Source: Muribaculaceae bacterium
GTDB taxonomy: Bacteria; Pseudomonadota; Alphaproteobacteria; Rs-D84
Direction of reading: 5' to 3'
Assembly (NCBI GenBank): GCA_023665245.1
Contig: JAMPEH010000002.1
Location: forward strand, 1-64,000
Length of the DNA stretch: 64,000 bases
Part shown: positions 966 to 46,512 of the stretch, piece by piece
Position numbering within the stretch: position 1 is the first letter of the stretch
How the letters are laid out: each line of letters opens with the position of its first letter
Made by a program: the position numbers and the translations under genes
Notes under the pieces: generated by a model
Database searches by the model: none
Told to the model about the DNA's origin: nothing
The model's input: only the letters and a program-made list of their open reading frames with translations

Positions 966-1655
966 TTACTTTTTATACTGGCAAGTGCTGCTGATTTTGA
1001 ATGTACCAGATACATCGTAATATGTGCCCGATGCAACATAACAACTGGTAATCACGGTCGCGCCGGCCGCACTGGTTCCACGTTTCAATGTTGTTTTTGC
1101 GGATGTTGTATAAACATCTGACCATGTTGGGCATTGTGTACATCCCGATGTGCCGTTTGTAGAACTGCCATAATATCCCGCGGCGCAACGATATTGGATT
1201 GACGCAACGCAATCTGCGTTATAGACGGTTCGCTTTTGATATCCGGTGCGGTATTCCGCCCAATCGGTGTCGTTTGGACAATTTTTATCTTTTACACATG
1301 TGTGATATAGATACGGGGCTTTGTTAATATCTTCATCTGGTTCATACCAGCAGAAATCATTATATGTAAATCTAGTTGCGTCAGCGTCAATATATTGCAG
1401 TGAATATCCCGACGGACATGATGCACATGATTGAACGTAATAACATTTGCCATCTGTTTCGTGCCACATAAAACTTTCGTATTGATTCATTGTGGCGCAA
1501 TTGTGCGTCATAAAGGATGCCGTCATGTCCGTACAATTGGAATACACGCCTTTCAGCTGCATATAATCACCCCAGTCATCGCAATATGCAATTGCATTGC
1601 CATGCACACTGAAAATCGTCAATATGGTGATAGGTATAATAAATTTTGTTTTCAT
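966..1655 (-). CDS. Cysteine-rich secreted protein, paralogue 1
   Basis: The protein has 229 residues. The start at 1655 is chosen because AGGAG lies nine bases upstream; the frame stays open further upstream into the leader, but that part has no signal peptide logic. Residues 1-22 form a Sec signal peptide ending AIA before YC. The mature part has about fifteen cysteines and short C-x-x-C-x-S-G-Y units (CASCPSGYSL) plus a C-terminal block ITSCYVASGTYYD followed by a final cysteine before YKK. The gene at 20128-20718 encodes the same arrangement with low overall identity, so the two are paralogues. Both are preceded by the same structured RNA leader. I do not recognise a catalytic motif; a disulfide-stabilised periplasmic or surface protein is the inference. 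Function unknown. Confidence 0.8.
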   Translation of the reverse strand: MKTKFIIPITILTIFSVHGNAIAYCDDWGDYMQLKGVYSNCTDMTASFMTHNCATMNQYESFMWHETDGKCYYVQSCASCPSGYSLQYIDADATRFTYNDFCWYEPDEDINKAPYLYHTCVKDKNCPNDTDWAEYRTGYQKRTVYNADCVASIQYRCAAGYYGSSTNGTSGCTQCPTWSDVYTTSAKTTLKRGTSAAGATVITSCYVASGTYYDVSGTFKISSTCQYKK

Positions 1656-1905
1656 TGTTTTGGTCTCCTGCGTTTTCGTAATGAAAAAACCACCCAAAAT
1701 AGAGTGGTCAGGAGGTTCGAAACAATCACAAGAATTGTGTGCTTATTGTGCGCGTGATGCGCATTATTCACAGCCCTCCTGACCCCATGTGGGACAGGAG
1801 TTTATTTTTCGTCGCAATATTAAAAACGGCGCAAACGCGCCTATAAATTATATTCCGACGCTTGTGAACGGGTTTCGACACCCCATCAATGGAAATCCCA
1901 TTGAC
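1656..1905 (-). ncRNA. Structured attenuator-like leader RNA (copy C) of the cysteine-rich gene
   Basis: Reading on the minus strand from the predicted start near 1905: a 5'-terminal hairpin TCAATGG/CCATTGA; a short GGGT/ACCC hairpin; a long stem of CGTCGGAATAT with AATATTGCGACG enclosing GGCGC/GCGCC; then segment 1 (CTCCTGTCCC, 1791-1800), segment 2 (GGTCAGGAGG, 1775-1784), a small hairpin ACAAT/ATTGT, segment 3 (CCTCCTGACC, 1706-1715) and segment 4 inside the terminator 1690-1708 with a six-T run. Segment 2 can pair with 1, leaving 3 free for the terminator, or with 3, which removes the terminator stem. The start codon of the cysteine-rich gene is 29 bases beyond the T run. Same plan as the copies at 5883, 19768 and 20719. 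Confidence 0.8.
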
Positions 1906-1911
1906 ACCGAT

Positions 1912-1940
1912 ATTATATAACGCAGCGTTATTAAATACAA
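1912..1940 (-). promoter_or_regulatory. Promoter of leader C
   Basis: On the minus strand, TTGTAT (1935-1940), a 17-base spacer and TATAAT (1912-1917). The first hairpin of the leader begins where transcription should start. Confidence 0.75.
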
Positions 1941-2203: not shown

Positions 2204-2304
2204 TCGTCACCCCGACGAAGGTCGGGGACTATTGAGTTCCTCGATTCTCCTAGTGCTAGGACATTACTGAACACAGTGGATACCGGCCGCCGCCGGGGTG
2301 ACGA
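2204..2304. repeat. Three-hairpin palindromic repeat, copy 3
   Basis: CGTCACCCCGACGAAGGTCGGGG opens the element as its first hairpin (written here as CCCCGACGAAGGTCGGGG), followed by TCCTAGTGCTAGGA and a CCGGCCGCCGCCGG hairpin, then GTGACGA. Ends are inverted repeats. Confidence 0.75.
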
Positions 2305-2344
2305 TATTTTTTACATCTATTGTTAATTGTTATCTGTTCATTGA

Positions 2345-2369
2345 AAAATGCCCCAATGGGGCATTTTTA
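2345..2369. terminator. Bidirectional intrinsic terminator
   Basis: ATGCCCC/GGGGCAT stem with A run on one side and T run on the other. It overlaps the stop codon of the lipoprotein gene at 2367-3092 and would end its transcript. Confidence 0.75.
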
Positions 2370-3092
2370 TAACACTTTGCCTGTTTTGGCGTCAAACTTT
2401 TCACGGCCCACACTAATAACACCGTCACTATATTTTGGTGCCACCTGTTTATCAACAGATATGCGCCAATATACCGCGCCGTCATTGTCGCGAATGGCGT
2501 ATAAATTGCCATCGGTTGACACAACGTATGACACGTTATTTGCCACCAAGAACGGCAACCCGACACTGATATTCGCGCACCATTTTTTTGCGCCATCGAT
2601 ATTATTTATTTTGCAATATGCATCCCCTAAGCCCCCGGCATAAACATACGTGTCACCAACGACAATCGGCGCCGTGATATCAACAACCGATGCACCACCG
2701 GTCAGGTTGCTGGGGCGGTAAATATCCGACATCCATGCGATTACGCGGGTGCTTGGATTAACCTTGACCAATTCACCAGTGGTCAGGCCTGCATACACAT
2801 ATTTACCGTGGCAGACGGGGTGCTGGTCACTTTTGACAGAATTCGGGGTGGCAAAACCACTGAAAATCTTTCTGTCACCATGCCAGATAACGTTTGACGC
2901 ATCCTGGCGATATGGACAATCTGTGACATCTGAATTTATGAAATTTTCAGGTGCATCCGGCACCGGCGTATTTAGCACCGAAACATCATTTGTTGCAAAT
3001 ATAGCAGAACGCGTACCCGGCAAAATCGGGTCATGTTTGGCACATGCCGCCAATGCCAATAATGCAATCACAGATGTCAAAATTTTACGCAT
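2367..3092 (-). CDS. BamB-like PQQ beta-propeller lipoprotein, short form
   Basis: 241 residues. The signal peptide ends in a lipobox (LAACA, Cys17), so this is a lipoprotein with Ala at +2, which favours transfer to the outer membrane. The mature part contains beta-propeller strands with the typical repeated pattern of a PQQ-like blade, for example TTGELVKVNPSTRVIAW, STDGNLYAIRDNDGAVYW and KFDAKTGKVL. BamB is the accessory propeller of the Bam outer-membrane protein insertion complex. E. coli BamB has about 390 residues and eight blades, so this form can hold only about half as many. The upstream neighbour is a YfgM-like protein, and yfgM-bamB adjacency is a known arrangement, which supports the call. 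No intact eighth blade can be seen; a non-Bam propeller lipoprotein is the alternative. Confidence 0.65.
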   Translation of the reverse strand: MRKILTSVIALLALAACAKHDPILPGTRSAIFATNDVSVLNTPVPDAPENFINSDVTDCPYRQDASNVIWHGDRKIFSGFATPNSVKSDQHPVCHGKYVYAGLTTGELVKVNPSTRVIAWMSDIYRPSNLTGGASVVDITAPIVVGDTYVYAGGLGDAYCKINNIDGAKKWCANISVGLPFLVANNVSYVVSTDGNLYAIRDNDGAVYWRISVDKQVAPKYSDGVISVGREKFDAKTGKVL

Positions 3093-5867: not shown

Positions 5868-5876
5868 TGTTATAAT
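5868..5876 (+). promoter_or_regulatory. Extended -10 promoter of RNA copy A
   Basis: TGTTATAAT, an extended -10. It is preceded by a block (CCTAGATTTT, 5847-5856) that is conserved in the copy at 19768-20014 and would lie near -35. Confidence 0.75.
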
Positions 5877-5882
5877 CTGCAT

Positions 5883-6121
5883 GCGTTGATGAATTATCAG
5901 CGTGAGGTGTGAATACCTCTCATAGAAAAAATCTCCAACCCGGGTTGGAGGGTTGTGATATATTTAAATAAACAATACTATTCTCTATGATAGTATTCAA
6001 CCTCCAACCACTTTAGATTTATCTTGGTGGTTTTGTTTTTGTTTGGAGATTGGAGCCCCCAGACAAAATAAGGAAAAGACCTATGTCAAGCAACGACACC
6101 GCCCAAATGGGCGGTGTTTTT
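5883..6121 (+). ncRNA. Structured attenuator-like RNA, stand-alone copy A
   Basis: The transcript is predicted to begin with hairpin GCGTTGAT/ATCAGCGT, then GAGGT/ACCTC. Segment 1 is CTCCAACC (5933-5940), segment 2 GGTTGGAGGGTTG (5943-5955), a hairpin AATACTAT/ATAGTATT follows, then segment 3 CAACCTCCAACC (5998-6009), whose last bases form the terminator stem AACCACT/GGTGGTT with TTTTGTTTTTG (6031-6041). Segment 2 pairs either with 1 (terminator forms) or with 3 (12 pairs, antiterminator). Beyond it come hairpin GTTTGG/CCAGAC (6041-6064), the conserved tail AAAAGACCTATGTCAAG and a second terminator (6096-6121). No gene follows in this direction, since gpsA converges. It is about 70 percent identical to the copy at 19768-20014 by eye. 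Confidence 0.8.
6096..6121. terminator. Bidirectional terminator between RNA copy A and gpsA
   Basis: ACACCGCCC/GGGCGGTGT stem followed by a T run. It ends RNA copy A on the plus strand and overlaps the gpsA stop codon on the other. Confidence 0.8.
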
Positions 6122-19765: not shown

Positions 19766-19793
19766 AAAAAACACCGGCAAATGCCGGTGTTTT
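19766..19793. terminator. Bidirectional terminator of accC and RNA copy B
   Basis: ACACCGGCA/TGCCGGTGT stem flanked by an A run and a T run, within two bases of the accC stop codon. Confidence 0.8.
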
Positions 19794-20014
19794 ACTTGAC
19801 ATAGGTCTTTTCCGCATTTTGTCTGGGGCTCCAATCCCAAACAAAAAGAAAACCACTGTAATAAATCACAGAGGTTGGAGGTTAAAGACTATCTAATGGA
19901 ATAGTGTTGCTTATTTATTATTCGCAACCCTCCAACCCATTGGGTTGGAGTTATACGTCACTCAGACGCCATTAGTAGAGGTCTTTACACCCCACGTTGA
20001 CAATTCATCAACGC
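19768..20014 (-). ncRNA. Structured attenuator-like RNA, stand-alone copy B
   Basis: On the minus strand the order equals copy A: 5' hairpin GCGTTGAT/GTCAACGT, GGGGT/ACCTC hairpin, an extra small hairpin GCGTC/GACGT, segment 1 CTCCAACCC (19942-19950), segment 2 GGGTTGGAGGGTTG (19925-19938), hairpin ACTAT/ATAGT, segment 3 CCTCCAACC (19873-19881), terminator stem AACCTCTGT/ACAGTGGTT with TTTTCTTTTTG (19843-19852), then hairpin GTTTGGG/CCCAGAC, tail AAAAGACCTATGTCAAG and a second terminator. Several pairs differ from copy A but keep pairing (T-G to T-A in the first stem, A-T to G-T in the second). No gene follows in this direction. Confidence 0.8.
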
Positions 20015-20020
20015 ATGTGA

Positions 20021-20029
20021 ATTATAACA
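20021..20029 (-). promoter_or_regulatory. Extended -10 promoter of RNA copy B
   Basis: On the minus strand TGTTATAAT, as in copy A, with the conserved CCTAGATTTT block about 20 bases further upstream. Confidence 0.75.
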
Positions 20030-20057
20030 AATAAATACACAAAATCTAGGATTTTAT

Positions 20058-20134
20058 TAGAGTTTAGGTAATAGAGTATAGGTAGTAGTTAATGTGTGGC
20101 GCAATATGCGCCACGACTTATTTCTCTTCACTCT
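20058..20134. repeat. TAGAGT-type palindromic repeat, copy 1
   Basis: Central perfect hairpin GTGGCGCA/TGCGCCAC flanked by AT-rich arms built of TAGAGT, TAGTAG and CTTCACTCT pieces. Two further copies are at 30454-30552 and 33529-33627. This copy covers the last two codons and stop of the cysteine-rich gene at 20128-20718. Confidence 0.8.
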
Positions 20135-20718
20135 TTGTAATAACAGTTTCCTGTCAGTTCATAAATACCTGTTGCGCCACTGTACGTACCGGGCGTTAAA
20201 TAGCATGATGTAATCCCCATATTATTACCGGCATCTGATGTTCCGCCACCCGGGCATGTGCCGCATGACCAAGTGCAATTGGTTGGTTCTGTCTTGCCCA
20301 TATTATAAGTTCCTACCTTGCAACGGTATCCATAATCTCTATTGTTATAAACACATTTTTCTTCTTTTGGGTTTCCGTAATCGGTACATGCCACCCATGT
20401 GCAACTGCCGTAATCACCACCACTGCCGGTGGATTCGCATACACCGTATGATATGGTTCCAGAACAATTGTCAGTTGGATGTTGTGTTTTTAGTGTGTAT
20501 CCGGACTTGCAACTGGTGCAATCAATTAAGTGCCGGTATGCGCCCGCATTAAAATAATAACATTTGTGCACATAATTGCTGCATCCCTTGGTATCACCCA
20601 TAATACCATACGAATCACAGTCATTATTGTATGATTTTATTTCGCATTGTGTGGCGGAATTTGCAGATGTTATAAAGCCTGTGAAAATTACCGTACACAT
20701 TATTTTTGTTATTTTCAT
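20128..20718 (-). CDS. Cysteine-rich secreted protein, paralogue 2
   Basis: 196 residues from the ATG at 20718, which has AGGGGG seven bases upstream. The frame is open through the leader up to 20811, but that part overlaps the terminator structure and is not a credible N terminus. The signal peptide is MKITKIMCTVIFTGFITSANSA. The mature protein carries about eighteen cysteines, a CTSCKSGYTL unit and the C-terminal ITSCYLTPGTYSG block also seen in the protein encoded at 966-1655. A secreted disulfide-rich protein of unknown function. The stop codon lies inside a palindromic repeat, so the original C terminus may have been replaced. Expression is probably controlled by the leader RNA at 20719-20958. 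Confidence 0.8.
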   Translation of the reverse strand: MKITKIMCTVIFTGFITSANSATQCEIKSYNNDCDSYGIMGDTKGCSNYVHKCYYFNAGAYRHLIDCTSCKSGYTLKTQHPTDNCSGTISYGVCESTGSGGDYGSCTWVACTDYGNPKEEKCVYNNRDYGYRCKVGTYNMGKTEPTNCTWSCGTCPGGGTSDAGNNMGITSCYLTPGTYSGATGIYELTGNCYYKE

Positions 20719-20958
20719 TAGTATCCCCCTGATTATTTCTAAACAAAAACCACCCAAGATTTGAGTGGTCAGGAGGCTGATAACAATTCCAAGAATTGCG
20801 TGCTTATTCAATATATTCGCAACCCTCCTGACCAGGGTCCTGGTTCAGGAGTTATTTCGTCTGAATATAAAAAAAAGACGCATCAATCGCGCCACAGGTA
20901 GATATTCCGACGCTTGGATAGAGGTTATCAGGCCCCATCATGGCAACACACCATGACA
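20719..20958 (-). ncRNA. Structured attenuator-like leader RNA (copy D) of the cysteine-rich gene
   Basis: Minus strand: 5' hairpin TCATGG/CCATGA, a GGGG/CCTC hairpin, long stem CGTCGGAATAT with ATATTCAGACG enclosing GGCGC/GCGTC, segment 1 CTCCTGAACC (20842-20851), segment 2 GGTCAGGAGG (20824-20833), hairpin CAATT/AATTG, segment 3 CCTCCTGACC (20767-20776), and the terminator ACCACTC/GGGTGGT plus TTTTTG (20745-20769). As in the other copies, segment 2 can pair with either 1 or 3, and segment 3 shares bases with the terminator stem. The ribosome binding site and ATG of the cysteine-rich gene follow at once. Very similar to copy C, with paired changes in the first hairpin. Confidence 0.82.
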
Positions 20959-20964
20959 AGAATT

Positions 20965-20993
20965 ATTATATAATGCATTACAGCGTGTGTAAA
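20965..20993 (-). promoter_or_regulatory. Promoter of leader D
   Basis: On the minus strand TTTACA (20988-20993), 17-base spacer, TATAAT (20965-20970). Confidence 0.8.
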
Positions 20994-21033
20994 GAAAGGA
21001 TTTTCATTTTGTTGGATTATCTATCTCAAATCA

Positions 21034-21135
21034 CGTCACACCGTCGAAGGACGGTGTCCACTGTATTATTCGATTGTCCCAGTGCTAGAAACATATAAAA
21101 CACAATGGCCCCCGACCTTCGTCGGGGTGACGACG
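21034..21135. repeat. Three-hairpin palindromic repeat, copy 4
   Basis: CGTCACACCGTCGAAGGACG opens the copy (first hairpin ACCGTCGAAGGACGGT), then TCCCAGTGCTAGAA and hairpin CCCCGACCTTCGTCGGGG with GTGACGACG at the end. It lies just upstream of the promoter of leader D. Confidence 0.75.
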
Positions 21136-21152
21136 TTAGAAAAATTGTTCAT

Positions 21153-45817: not shown

Positions 45818-45875
45818 TATTTCTGCACATAAAAAAGCATAGATTTTTTATCATTTTTATTATATCATAATTACT

Positions 45876-46104
45876 GAATCCAAAGGGATTTGGGTTCGGG
45901 GCTGTGGTAAGCCTTCATAAAAGCGGCATAAAAAACATGTCGAAATCCGCCGATACAGGGCGCGATATGCGTCTTTTATTGTGTCCCCGCCAGTTTGGGT
46001 CGGGGGGCCGTCAGTTATAAAACAGGGTTTCCCAAAGACTGGCGGAATCATCCTTTTATGTGATTTACCAACTGCCCCGGCCGTCAAATTATTGACGGTT
46101 TTTT
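45876..46104 (+). ncRNA. Structured RNA upstream of virB2, unidentified
   Basis: A hairpin GAATCCAAA/TTTGGGTTC (45876-45897) is followed by a domain closed by a long-range helix: GGGGCTGTGGTAA (45898-45910) with TTACCAACTGCCCC (46065-46078), twelve pairs with one mismatch and one bulge. Inside lie CGGCAT/ATGTCG, GATACA/TGTGTC around GGCGC/GCGTC, and CGCCAGT/ACTGGCG extended by TTGGG/CCCAA. It ends in an intrinsic terminator (46081-46104). The closed domain is 181 bases, close to 6S RNA, but I cannot confirm that family; RNase P, SRP and tmRNA signatures are absent. Since virB2 starts 25 bases after the T run, a cis-acting attenuator is equally possible. A -10 like CATAAT is at 45866-45871. 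Confidence 0.6.
46081..46104 (+). terminator. Terminator between the structured RNA and virB2
   Basis: CCGTCAA/TTGACGG stem with a four-base loop and six T. Confidence 0.85.
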
Positions 46105-46128: not shown

Positions 46129-46512
46129 ATGAAAAAACTTTTTTCATTTAACAACAAATGGTTATTTACCATGCTGGCATTATCAATATTGATAACCAAC
46201 GCATCCATGGCGGCAGACCCGACATTTACAGTCGGTAAAGAAATGTGCGACATGATTAAAGAATTACAAGTTGTATTTAAAACACTGCGTACATTGGCAT
46301 TTCTGGGTGCTGGATTTCTTTTGGCCAAATACGGATGGGAGGCCATTTCAACCGGCAAACTGAACGGTAAAGATTTAATAGAAGGTGTAAAAACAACCGG
46401 CATATCAATGATTGTCGGATTCGCGTTGTTGTTTGCAATCGGTGTTATTTTAAGTGTGTTGATAAATGGCCGTATTACCGGATGCCCTGAGTTAACACAA
46501 GGTTGGATTTAA
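46129..46512 (+). CDS. virB2: VirB2-like type IV secretion pilin
   Basis: 127 residues. A long signal peptide ends SMAA near residue 28, and two hydrophobic helices follow (LAFLGAGFLLAKYGWEAIS and SMIVGFALLFAIGVILSVLI) with a short polar loop between, the structure of VirB2/TrbC pilins. Two cysteines near the ends of the mature protein could form a disulfide. The ribosome binding site is AAAGGGG. It stands apart from virB3-virB4, as is usual for the dispersed P-type systems of Rickettsiales-like bacteria, and is preceded by a structured RNA. Confidence 0.85.
   Translation: MKKLFSFNNKWLFTMLALSILITNASMAADPTFTVGKEMCDMIKELQVVFKTLRTLAFLGAGFLLAKYGWEAISTGKLNGKDLIEGVKTTGISMIVGFALLFAIGVILSVLINGRITGCPELTQGWI

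Follow-up and report, generated by a model that had tools for sequence, protein, structure and literature searches.

The window, which is the whole 64,000-nt stretch of DNA analysed, contains five copies of a structured RNA (c1 to c5, Table 1), of which c4 and c3 lie on either side of a gene for a secreted-looking Cys-rich protein. Copies c1 to c4 have in common a promoter, the hairpins H1 and H2, a variable stem, segments 1 to 4 and a U-tailed terminator hairpin, and the original prediction of four copies with the same order of elements at 1656-1905 (-), 5883-6121 (+), 19768-20014 (-) and 20719-20958 (-) was borne out. The exact core pattern GGAGGGYTGYGAWWWN{1,25}AATAARCA occurs four times in the window, against 0 of 100 shuffles. 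Segments 1, 2 and 3 read, as claimed, CTCCAACC/GGTTGGAGG/CCTCCAACC in two copies and CTCCTG../GGTCAGGAGG/CCTCCTGACC in the other two. The number four stands for these copies and not for the total, which includes a fifth, divergent copy at 45877-46104 (+). The core, described before as kept unpaired, is in part paired, being closed by UGY/RCA pairs, and two long-range pairings, which involve the H2 loop and the strand 3' of H2, are absent from the earlier description.

Table 1. Copies of the RNA in the 64,000-nt window, their elements and the genes after them (R1 and R2 are the covariance models described in the text)
Feature	Positions	Strand	Context	Elements
c1	1684..1917	-	Leader of Cys-rich gene; R1/R2 match 1707-1783	-10 1912-1917; H1 1885-1905; H2 with a1 1870-1884; b1 1861-1866; segment 1 1791-1800; segment 2 1775-1784; core 1740-1776; P5 1723-1737; a' 1717-1723; segment 3 1706-1715; T1 1684-1708
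Gene after c1	966..1655	-	229-aa secreted-looking Cys-rich protein, 15 Cys; no Pfam family	
c2	5871..6121	+	No gene after; R1/R2 match 5943-6009	-10 5871-5876; H1 5883-5903; H2 with a1 5904-5919; b1 5921-5926; segment 1 5933-5941; segment 2 5943-5951; core 5950-5974; P5 5977-5994; a' 5993-5999; segment 3 6001-6009; T1 6006-6040; second terminator 6096-6121
c3	19766..20026	-	No gene after; evidence from sequence, R1/R2 match 19873-19937 and fold	-10 20021-20026; H1 19994-20014; H2 with a1 19978-19993; b1 19969-19975; P3 19955-19969; segment 1 19942-19950; segment 2 19929-19937; core 19908-19930; P5 19888-19905 with b' 19893-19899; a' 19883-19889; segment 3 19873-19881; T1 19843-19876; second terminator 19766-19791
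c4	20719..20970	-	Leader of Cys-rich gene; R1/R2 match 20768-20832	-10 20965-20970; H1 20939-20955; H2 with a1 20921-20936; b1 20913-20917; segment 1 20842-20851; segment 2 20824-20833; core 20801-20825; P5 20784-20798; a' 20777-20784; segment 3 20767-20776; T1 20741-20769
Gene after c4	20128..20718	-	196-aa secreted-looking Cys-rich protein, 18 Cys; no Pfam family over cut-off	
c5	45863..46104	+	sRNA-Xcc1-like core; R1 17.2 bits, E 0.08	Possible -10 TATCAT 45863-45868; H1 45877-45896; H2 with a1 45900-45913; b1 45916-45923; segment 2 45998-46005; P5 46046-46065 with b' 46053-46060; a' 46065-46070; segment 3 46075-46082; T1 46080-46104
Gene after c5	46129..46512	+	127-aa small membrane protein, VirB2-like by eye; no Pfam match	

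No gene was seen 3' of c2 (5883-6121) and c3 (19768-20014), which end at a second terminator. These two gene-less copies have a common conserved tail 3' of T1, at 6040-6121 (+) and 19766-19843 (-), made of a TTTGTTTGG..CCAGACAAA stem and GGAAAAGACCTATGTCAAG followed by the second terminator, and two exact patterns from the tail were absent from the 227 loci searched. About 3 kb from c5 and its membrane protein gene lies a VirB4/TrbE-type secretion ATPase gene (PF03135, 49294-51708 (-)). An intergenic inverted-repeat-like sequence with sub-gathering microRNA matches in Rfam is present at 21024-21140 (-), between infB (assigned by eye) and c4.

The compact part of the RNA is described by the covariance model R1, which was made from 37 sequences. 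The covariance model and covariation check proposed with the original prediction gave a 2:3 helix that covaries and copies in further genomes. Column pair 4/91 of this helix is UA in 27 of the 37 copies, AU in 7, GC in 2 and CG in 1. Covariation extends over the 2:3 helix, the core pairs and the P5 hairpin: 98.0% of cells are paired, compensatory changes are present in all three counted helices, both sides have changed in 60 cells (17.1 in shuffles), and the covariation score of the whole structure was matched or exceeded by 0 of 500 shuffles; at the level of sequence, these statistics demonstrate the 2:3 helix. Support was also obtained for the alternative pairing of segment 2 with segment 1 or segment 3 and for a U-tailed hairpin that begins in segment 3. 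In nested folding, which takes no account of the a1:a' and b1:b' pairings described below, so that these go unscored, the fold with 1:2 and the terminator was equal to or better than the 2:3 fold by 0.0 (c1), 4.4 (c2), 4.0 (c3) and 3.2 (c4) kcal/mol. Since the former is equal or favoured in all four copies, the 2:3 state would need extra help. Among the 43 copies of genome G007, a run of at least five U follows segment 3 in 40 (5.2 expected) and a -10-like box is present in all 43 (25.7 expected), while bases of segment 3 are drawn into a downstream fold in 38, which is not clearly above chance (30.4 in shuffles, maximum 38).

The long-range pairings join a1, in the H2 loop, with a', the strand before segment 3, and b1, the strand after H2, with b' in the P5 loop. 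A long-range helix was hinted at by the MFE folds, and comparison of the copies split it into these two pairings. Parsing of five genomes gave 170 copies (G007 43/43, G019 34/47, G017 31/46, G004 31/37, G005 31/55), and in the 168 of them that were used, a perfect 7-nt upstream complement of a' was found in 139 copies and an upstream complement of b' in 154, against 7.6 (maximum 16) and 54.1 (maximum 70) when partners were swapped. At 100 loci from the motif scan, which are partly the same copies, 0 of 1000 permutations gave an upstream a'/b' match as strong. This set comprises 100 of 127 parsed copies and leaves out L002, L080, L094, the window, repeats and copies lacking a start codon at the usual distance; in 3 of 130 pattern matches segment 3 was missing by the search string. 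The 13 c5-like copies (c5 and 12 RF02221 matches from sister genomes) also have a' and b' that match upstream (0 of 2000 permutations each). The a1:a' and b1:b' complementarity is thus demonstrated in statistics over many copies, and its support comes from the family, since single-locus shuffles of the five window copies are weak alone (10-55 of 500 for a' and 32-321 of 500 for b').

An exact motif scan of genome contigs found at least 119 stretches. Uncultured assemblies account for nearly all of those listed, under the titles Alphaproteobacteria, proteobacterium or Rickettsiales and in many cases with isolate names that refer to the animal gut; several bear the name Candidatus Enterousia, and one is Neisseria sicca. 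The same scan of viral contigs gave four stretches, of which L003 and L004 are identical in sequence; the partner segment is present in L002, L003 and L004 but not in L001. R1 found 2-55 copies per genome in each of 25 genomes, most of them of 0.7-1.1 Mb, which had been selected for holding the motif. Under a stricter filter, R1 had matches in 16 of 289 genomes from the wider class, and a second scan with a stricter filter gave 20 of 274. To our knowledge, dozens of copies in small genomes are unusual for a leader RNA. Some compact RNAs lie only about 90-100 nt apart (C4:27580/27670 in G004, C24:1060/1157 and C33:4773/4868 in G017), which leaves too little room between them for a separate a1/b1 module.

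The claim of a new, unrelated family of four copies was not supported, given that the Rfam family RF02221 (sRNA-Xcc1) matches relatives of the copies and, below its cut-off, c5, and that the layout is that of the C4 RNA of phage P1. RF02221 exceeds its gathering threshold (53 bits) at L002, a viral contig (77.6 bits), and at L080 from Neisseria sicca (61.8 bits), whereas c5, searched within 301 bases, stays below that threshold with 28.0 bits and E 0.005. Of 24 sister genomes, 21 have a match to RF02221 at E<=0.001, and one of the 24 exceeds the cut-off. None of the window copies matched RF02221 at gathering, the only level used for c1 and c2, and the stretch with c3 and c4 gave no match to it at E<=5. 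For this stretch, Rfam with E up to 5 gave 16 matches. None of these reached gathering (the best were mir-515, E 0.00065, and rimP, E 0.037), and no riboswitch, RF02221 or C4 was among them. The link of c1 to c4 with RF02221 runs through relatives. As the original prediction had it, T-box, SAM and TPP do not apply, and membership of these or other riboswitch families was rejected because the window copies match no Rfam family at gathering.

A second covariance model, R2, was built without L002, L080 and L094 to avoid circularity. Of 30 RF02221 loci it recovered 11 at E<=1, each at the position given by RF02221, and missed 19; seven of the 11 have E<=3e-5, with L130, L134, L152, L153, L124 and L126 among them, and one of these seven is the L080 locus again. 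It gave no match to c5 at E<=1. The copies have the outer helix around a core hairpin and the second hairpin that mark RF02221. The family link of the copies with sRNA-Xcc1 and their architecture are well supported, RF02221 being the nearest named sequence family. Among the RF02221 loci, L126 has a group II intron (RF02001, 138 bits) at 2210-2374 (-) on the same contig as its sRNA-Xcc1 copy, and this copy is followed by a gene for a SymE-like small protein, assigned by eye. An early-terminator-like module of a hairpin and a U-run, GCGGxxAACCGC..GCGGTTTTTTTGTGCC, was observed upstream in L124-L135 and in P1 (L155); in many sRNA-Xcc1 loci it separates b1 from segment 2, and in P1 it precedes C4.

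In the P1 record the order is a1, b1, the 77-nt C4 RNA, a2, b2 and icd, and C4 folds into an outer helix, a hairpin, a hairpin with b' in its loop, a' and the outer strand, which is the order in the window copies. For C4, the accessible text of one study (PMC5320573) describes RNase P cleavage where the outer helix has its 5' end, with b' lying over the ribosome site and a' providing specificity. The C4 feature of upstream a1 and b1 that are complementary to a' and b' is present in the family. Direct membership of C4 was rejected: RF01695 and RF03163 have no match in the window, RF01695 on P1 itself scores 68.8 bits, and R2 does not find the P1 C4. The 43 copies of G007 are compatible in sequence with RNase P cleavage, with G as the first base of segment 2 in 42 and RCC at the model end or one base past it in 41 by recount (25 in a stricter test).

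The targets of a' and b' at the downstream start codon, a2 and b2, were also compared. Taken as a group, 25 RF02221 loci show complementarity of a' and b' to two places, the upstream sequence and the last 45 nt ahead of the downstream start (as strong in 0 of 1000 permutations for each). Here a2 lies at -31..-24 (near -27) in 12 of 25 loci, against 2.7 (maximum 8) with swapped partners, and b2 lies over the SD in 15 of 25, against 4.6 (maximum 10), in position bins that were set after an earlier look at the data. These 25 of 30 loci exclude L136, L141 and L147 (no start), L145 (wrong start) and L150 (duplicate of L136), and L140 was kept despite a misread segment 3. For the window group, permutations were as strong in 132 of 1000 cases for a' and 993 of 1000 for b', and exact matches at the start site, 1 of 123 for a' and 11 of 123 for b', are at the level of chance; the c5-like copies gave 567 and 77 of 2000 permutations (n=9). 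Targeting of the start site was rejected for the window group, and its statistics establish that an a2/b2 start-site target is absent here.

Taken together, the sequence comparisons suggest that the copies are probably a C4-type self-recognising leader RNA which has expanded genome-wide and has been rewired towards transcription termination. The mechanism, signal and direction of control are what we infer. Each copy would be its own transcription unit, with a promoter, H1, a target-like module (a1 and b1), the compact RNA and a terminator. The compact RNA would be closed by the 2:3 helix, with b' in a hairpin loop and a' single-stranded, and the terminator would start in the end of segment 3. 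In one predicted fold, segments 1 and 2 pair and the terminator forms; in the other, segments 2 and 3 pair and the terminator would be weakened. The compact RNA, perhaps freed by RNase P by analogy with C4, may pair with a1 and b1 of new transcripts from its own or a sister locus and so determine how much read-through occurs. For C4, and for about half of the 25 RF02221 loci outside the group, what these strands match is instead the downstream gene's start site.

In 19 tandem pairs from five genomes, with starts 200-480 nt apart, the two copies resemble each other in a' and in b' more than the copies of 2838 other pairs do (4 and 1 of 20000 random sets, respectively), which is not so for the core (7288 of 20000) and H1 (1009 of 20000); the pairs include triplets and so are not independent, and two pairs less than 120 nt apart were treated separately. 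The statistics thus establish, for these pairs, that tandem copies share their code. The first copy has no gene in 18 of the 19 pairs and the second has a gene in 11, a gene being counted when a start codon with an SD-like box and at least 40 codons was found within 130 nt. Two pairs have an identical loop with an H2 stem changed on both sides (C2:621/821, GGGG..CCCC and CAGG..CCTG; C2:55133/54907, GGGG..CCCC and GAGG..CCTC), which is what RNA-RNA recognition would leave and to which duplication with a constrained code would be similar. The sharing of codes could also stem from duplication with a slowly changing code. A general orthogonality of codes within a genome was rejected, codes being shared in 115 of 2835 comparisons within and 431 of 11506 between genomes. 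The absence of start-site targets and the retention of terminators would suit a plain cis attenuator, a C4-type remnant that works by transcription speed and folding with no action in trans; this is rather unlikely, as code sharing between tandem copies with a usually gene-less first copy is hard to explain without recognition in trans. Tentatively, and with some doubt, the C4-type reading can be taken one step further: in this lineage of ~1-Mb genomes, an RNA code of dozens of C4-type leaders could include gene-less copies as trans antisense RNAs, which would pair with a1 and b1 of sister copies and set the terminators of accessory genes.

The start codon lies 42-58 nt after segment 3 in 111 of 125 copies with a gene. 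In all, 106 downstream proteins were compared with Pfam: 85 of 115 listed, near-duplicates being omitted by eye, 20 of 27 that belong to RF02221 loci, and the one encoded after c5. Most have no family; among the matches are helix-turn-helix families (with as many as 9 members), two to SymE_toxin, two to outer-membrane barrels, one to a DNA methylase and one to a UvrD helicase. The protein after L002 has a KilA-N domain, and P22_AR_N was found in one of the 106, by eye the protein after L080. By eye, many further downstream proteins are secreted and Cys-rich. The SD sequence depends on the type of copy: among 37 copies of type B, CAGG occurs in 20 and TGG[AG]G in 1, and among 80 of type A, CAGG occurs in 5 and TGG[AG]G in 30, where type A includes L002, L080, L094 and c2 of the window. 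A type-specific SD would fit pairing of segments 1 and 3 with the SD, and shared descent explains it equally well.

This near-fixed distance to the genes, the leader position, the U-runs after segment 3 and a constant core with variable supporting stems are also what a ligand-sensing riboswitch would have. In such an RNA the core GGGYUGYGAAUA..AAUAARCA would bind a small molecule, the 1:2, 2:3 and terminator structures would be the expression platform, and a1:a' and b1:b' would be ordinary tertiary contacts. It is, however, distinctly improbable, because the nearest relatives resemble an antisense system, tandem copies share the a'/b' code and not the core, and 2-55 copies per genome stand ahead of unrelated gene types or have no gene. 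Debris of repeats or mobile elements with terminators, as the multicopy, intergenic and partly gene-less copies might suggest, is very hard to credit in view of the compensatory changes in all three helices, the upstream complements of a' and b', the near-fixed start spacing and the copies' own promoters.

With the C4-type reading preferred here, sRNA-Xcc1, trans-acting in the literature, would be joined to the logic of C4, which names its likely target as the start site of its own downstream gene, and small genomes would hold a C4-type RNA that has multiplied to dozens of copies and whose pairing code lends itself to swap experiments. The sRNA-Xcc1 of Xanthomonas was mapped by RACE as an 88-nt RNA, according to the accessible part of the report (PMC2996969), and it is called a trans-acting sRNA in a title from 2011. 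In integron cassettes it is placed upstream of symE, and the accessible text speaks of a divergent regulatory mechanism (PMC12444791). Within the accessible text of the literature searched, no paper was found that describes sRNA-Xcc1 as C4-like, and one with both names lists them separately. The window copies resemble RF02221 in the closed outer helix, the core hairpin and the b' hairpin in the same order, and upstream a1/b1 complementarity is also found at RF02221 loci, although the Rfam model spans only the 87-nt 3' part; they differ in that RF02221 loci outside the group carry a start-site target in about half of 25.

Like the C4 RNAs of P1 and P7 (RF01695; c4-a1b1, RF03163), the window copies have a promoter, a1, b1 and a compact RNA with a b' loop followed by a'; unlike C4, they have a different core hairpin, no covariance match and no a2 or b2. 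Group 1 sRNAs of Acinetobacter baumannii are C4-like RNAs present in multiple copies in one genome, some with an extra 5' region, in the description available (PMC5320573), and they are set apart by that description only, as processed sRNAs that match the Rfam C4 motif (PMC5320573). IsrK of Gifsy-1 (RF01394) gave only sub-threshold Rfam matches, to L135, to the window and, with 35.1 bits, to the a1/b1 stretch of P1. In the accessible text on IsrK, one promoter serves both a short RNA and a read-through mRNA, and the short RNA acts on the longer one in trans (PMC4825925).
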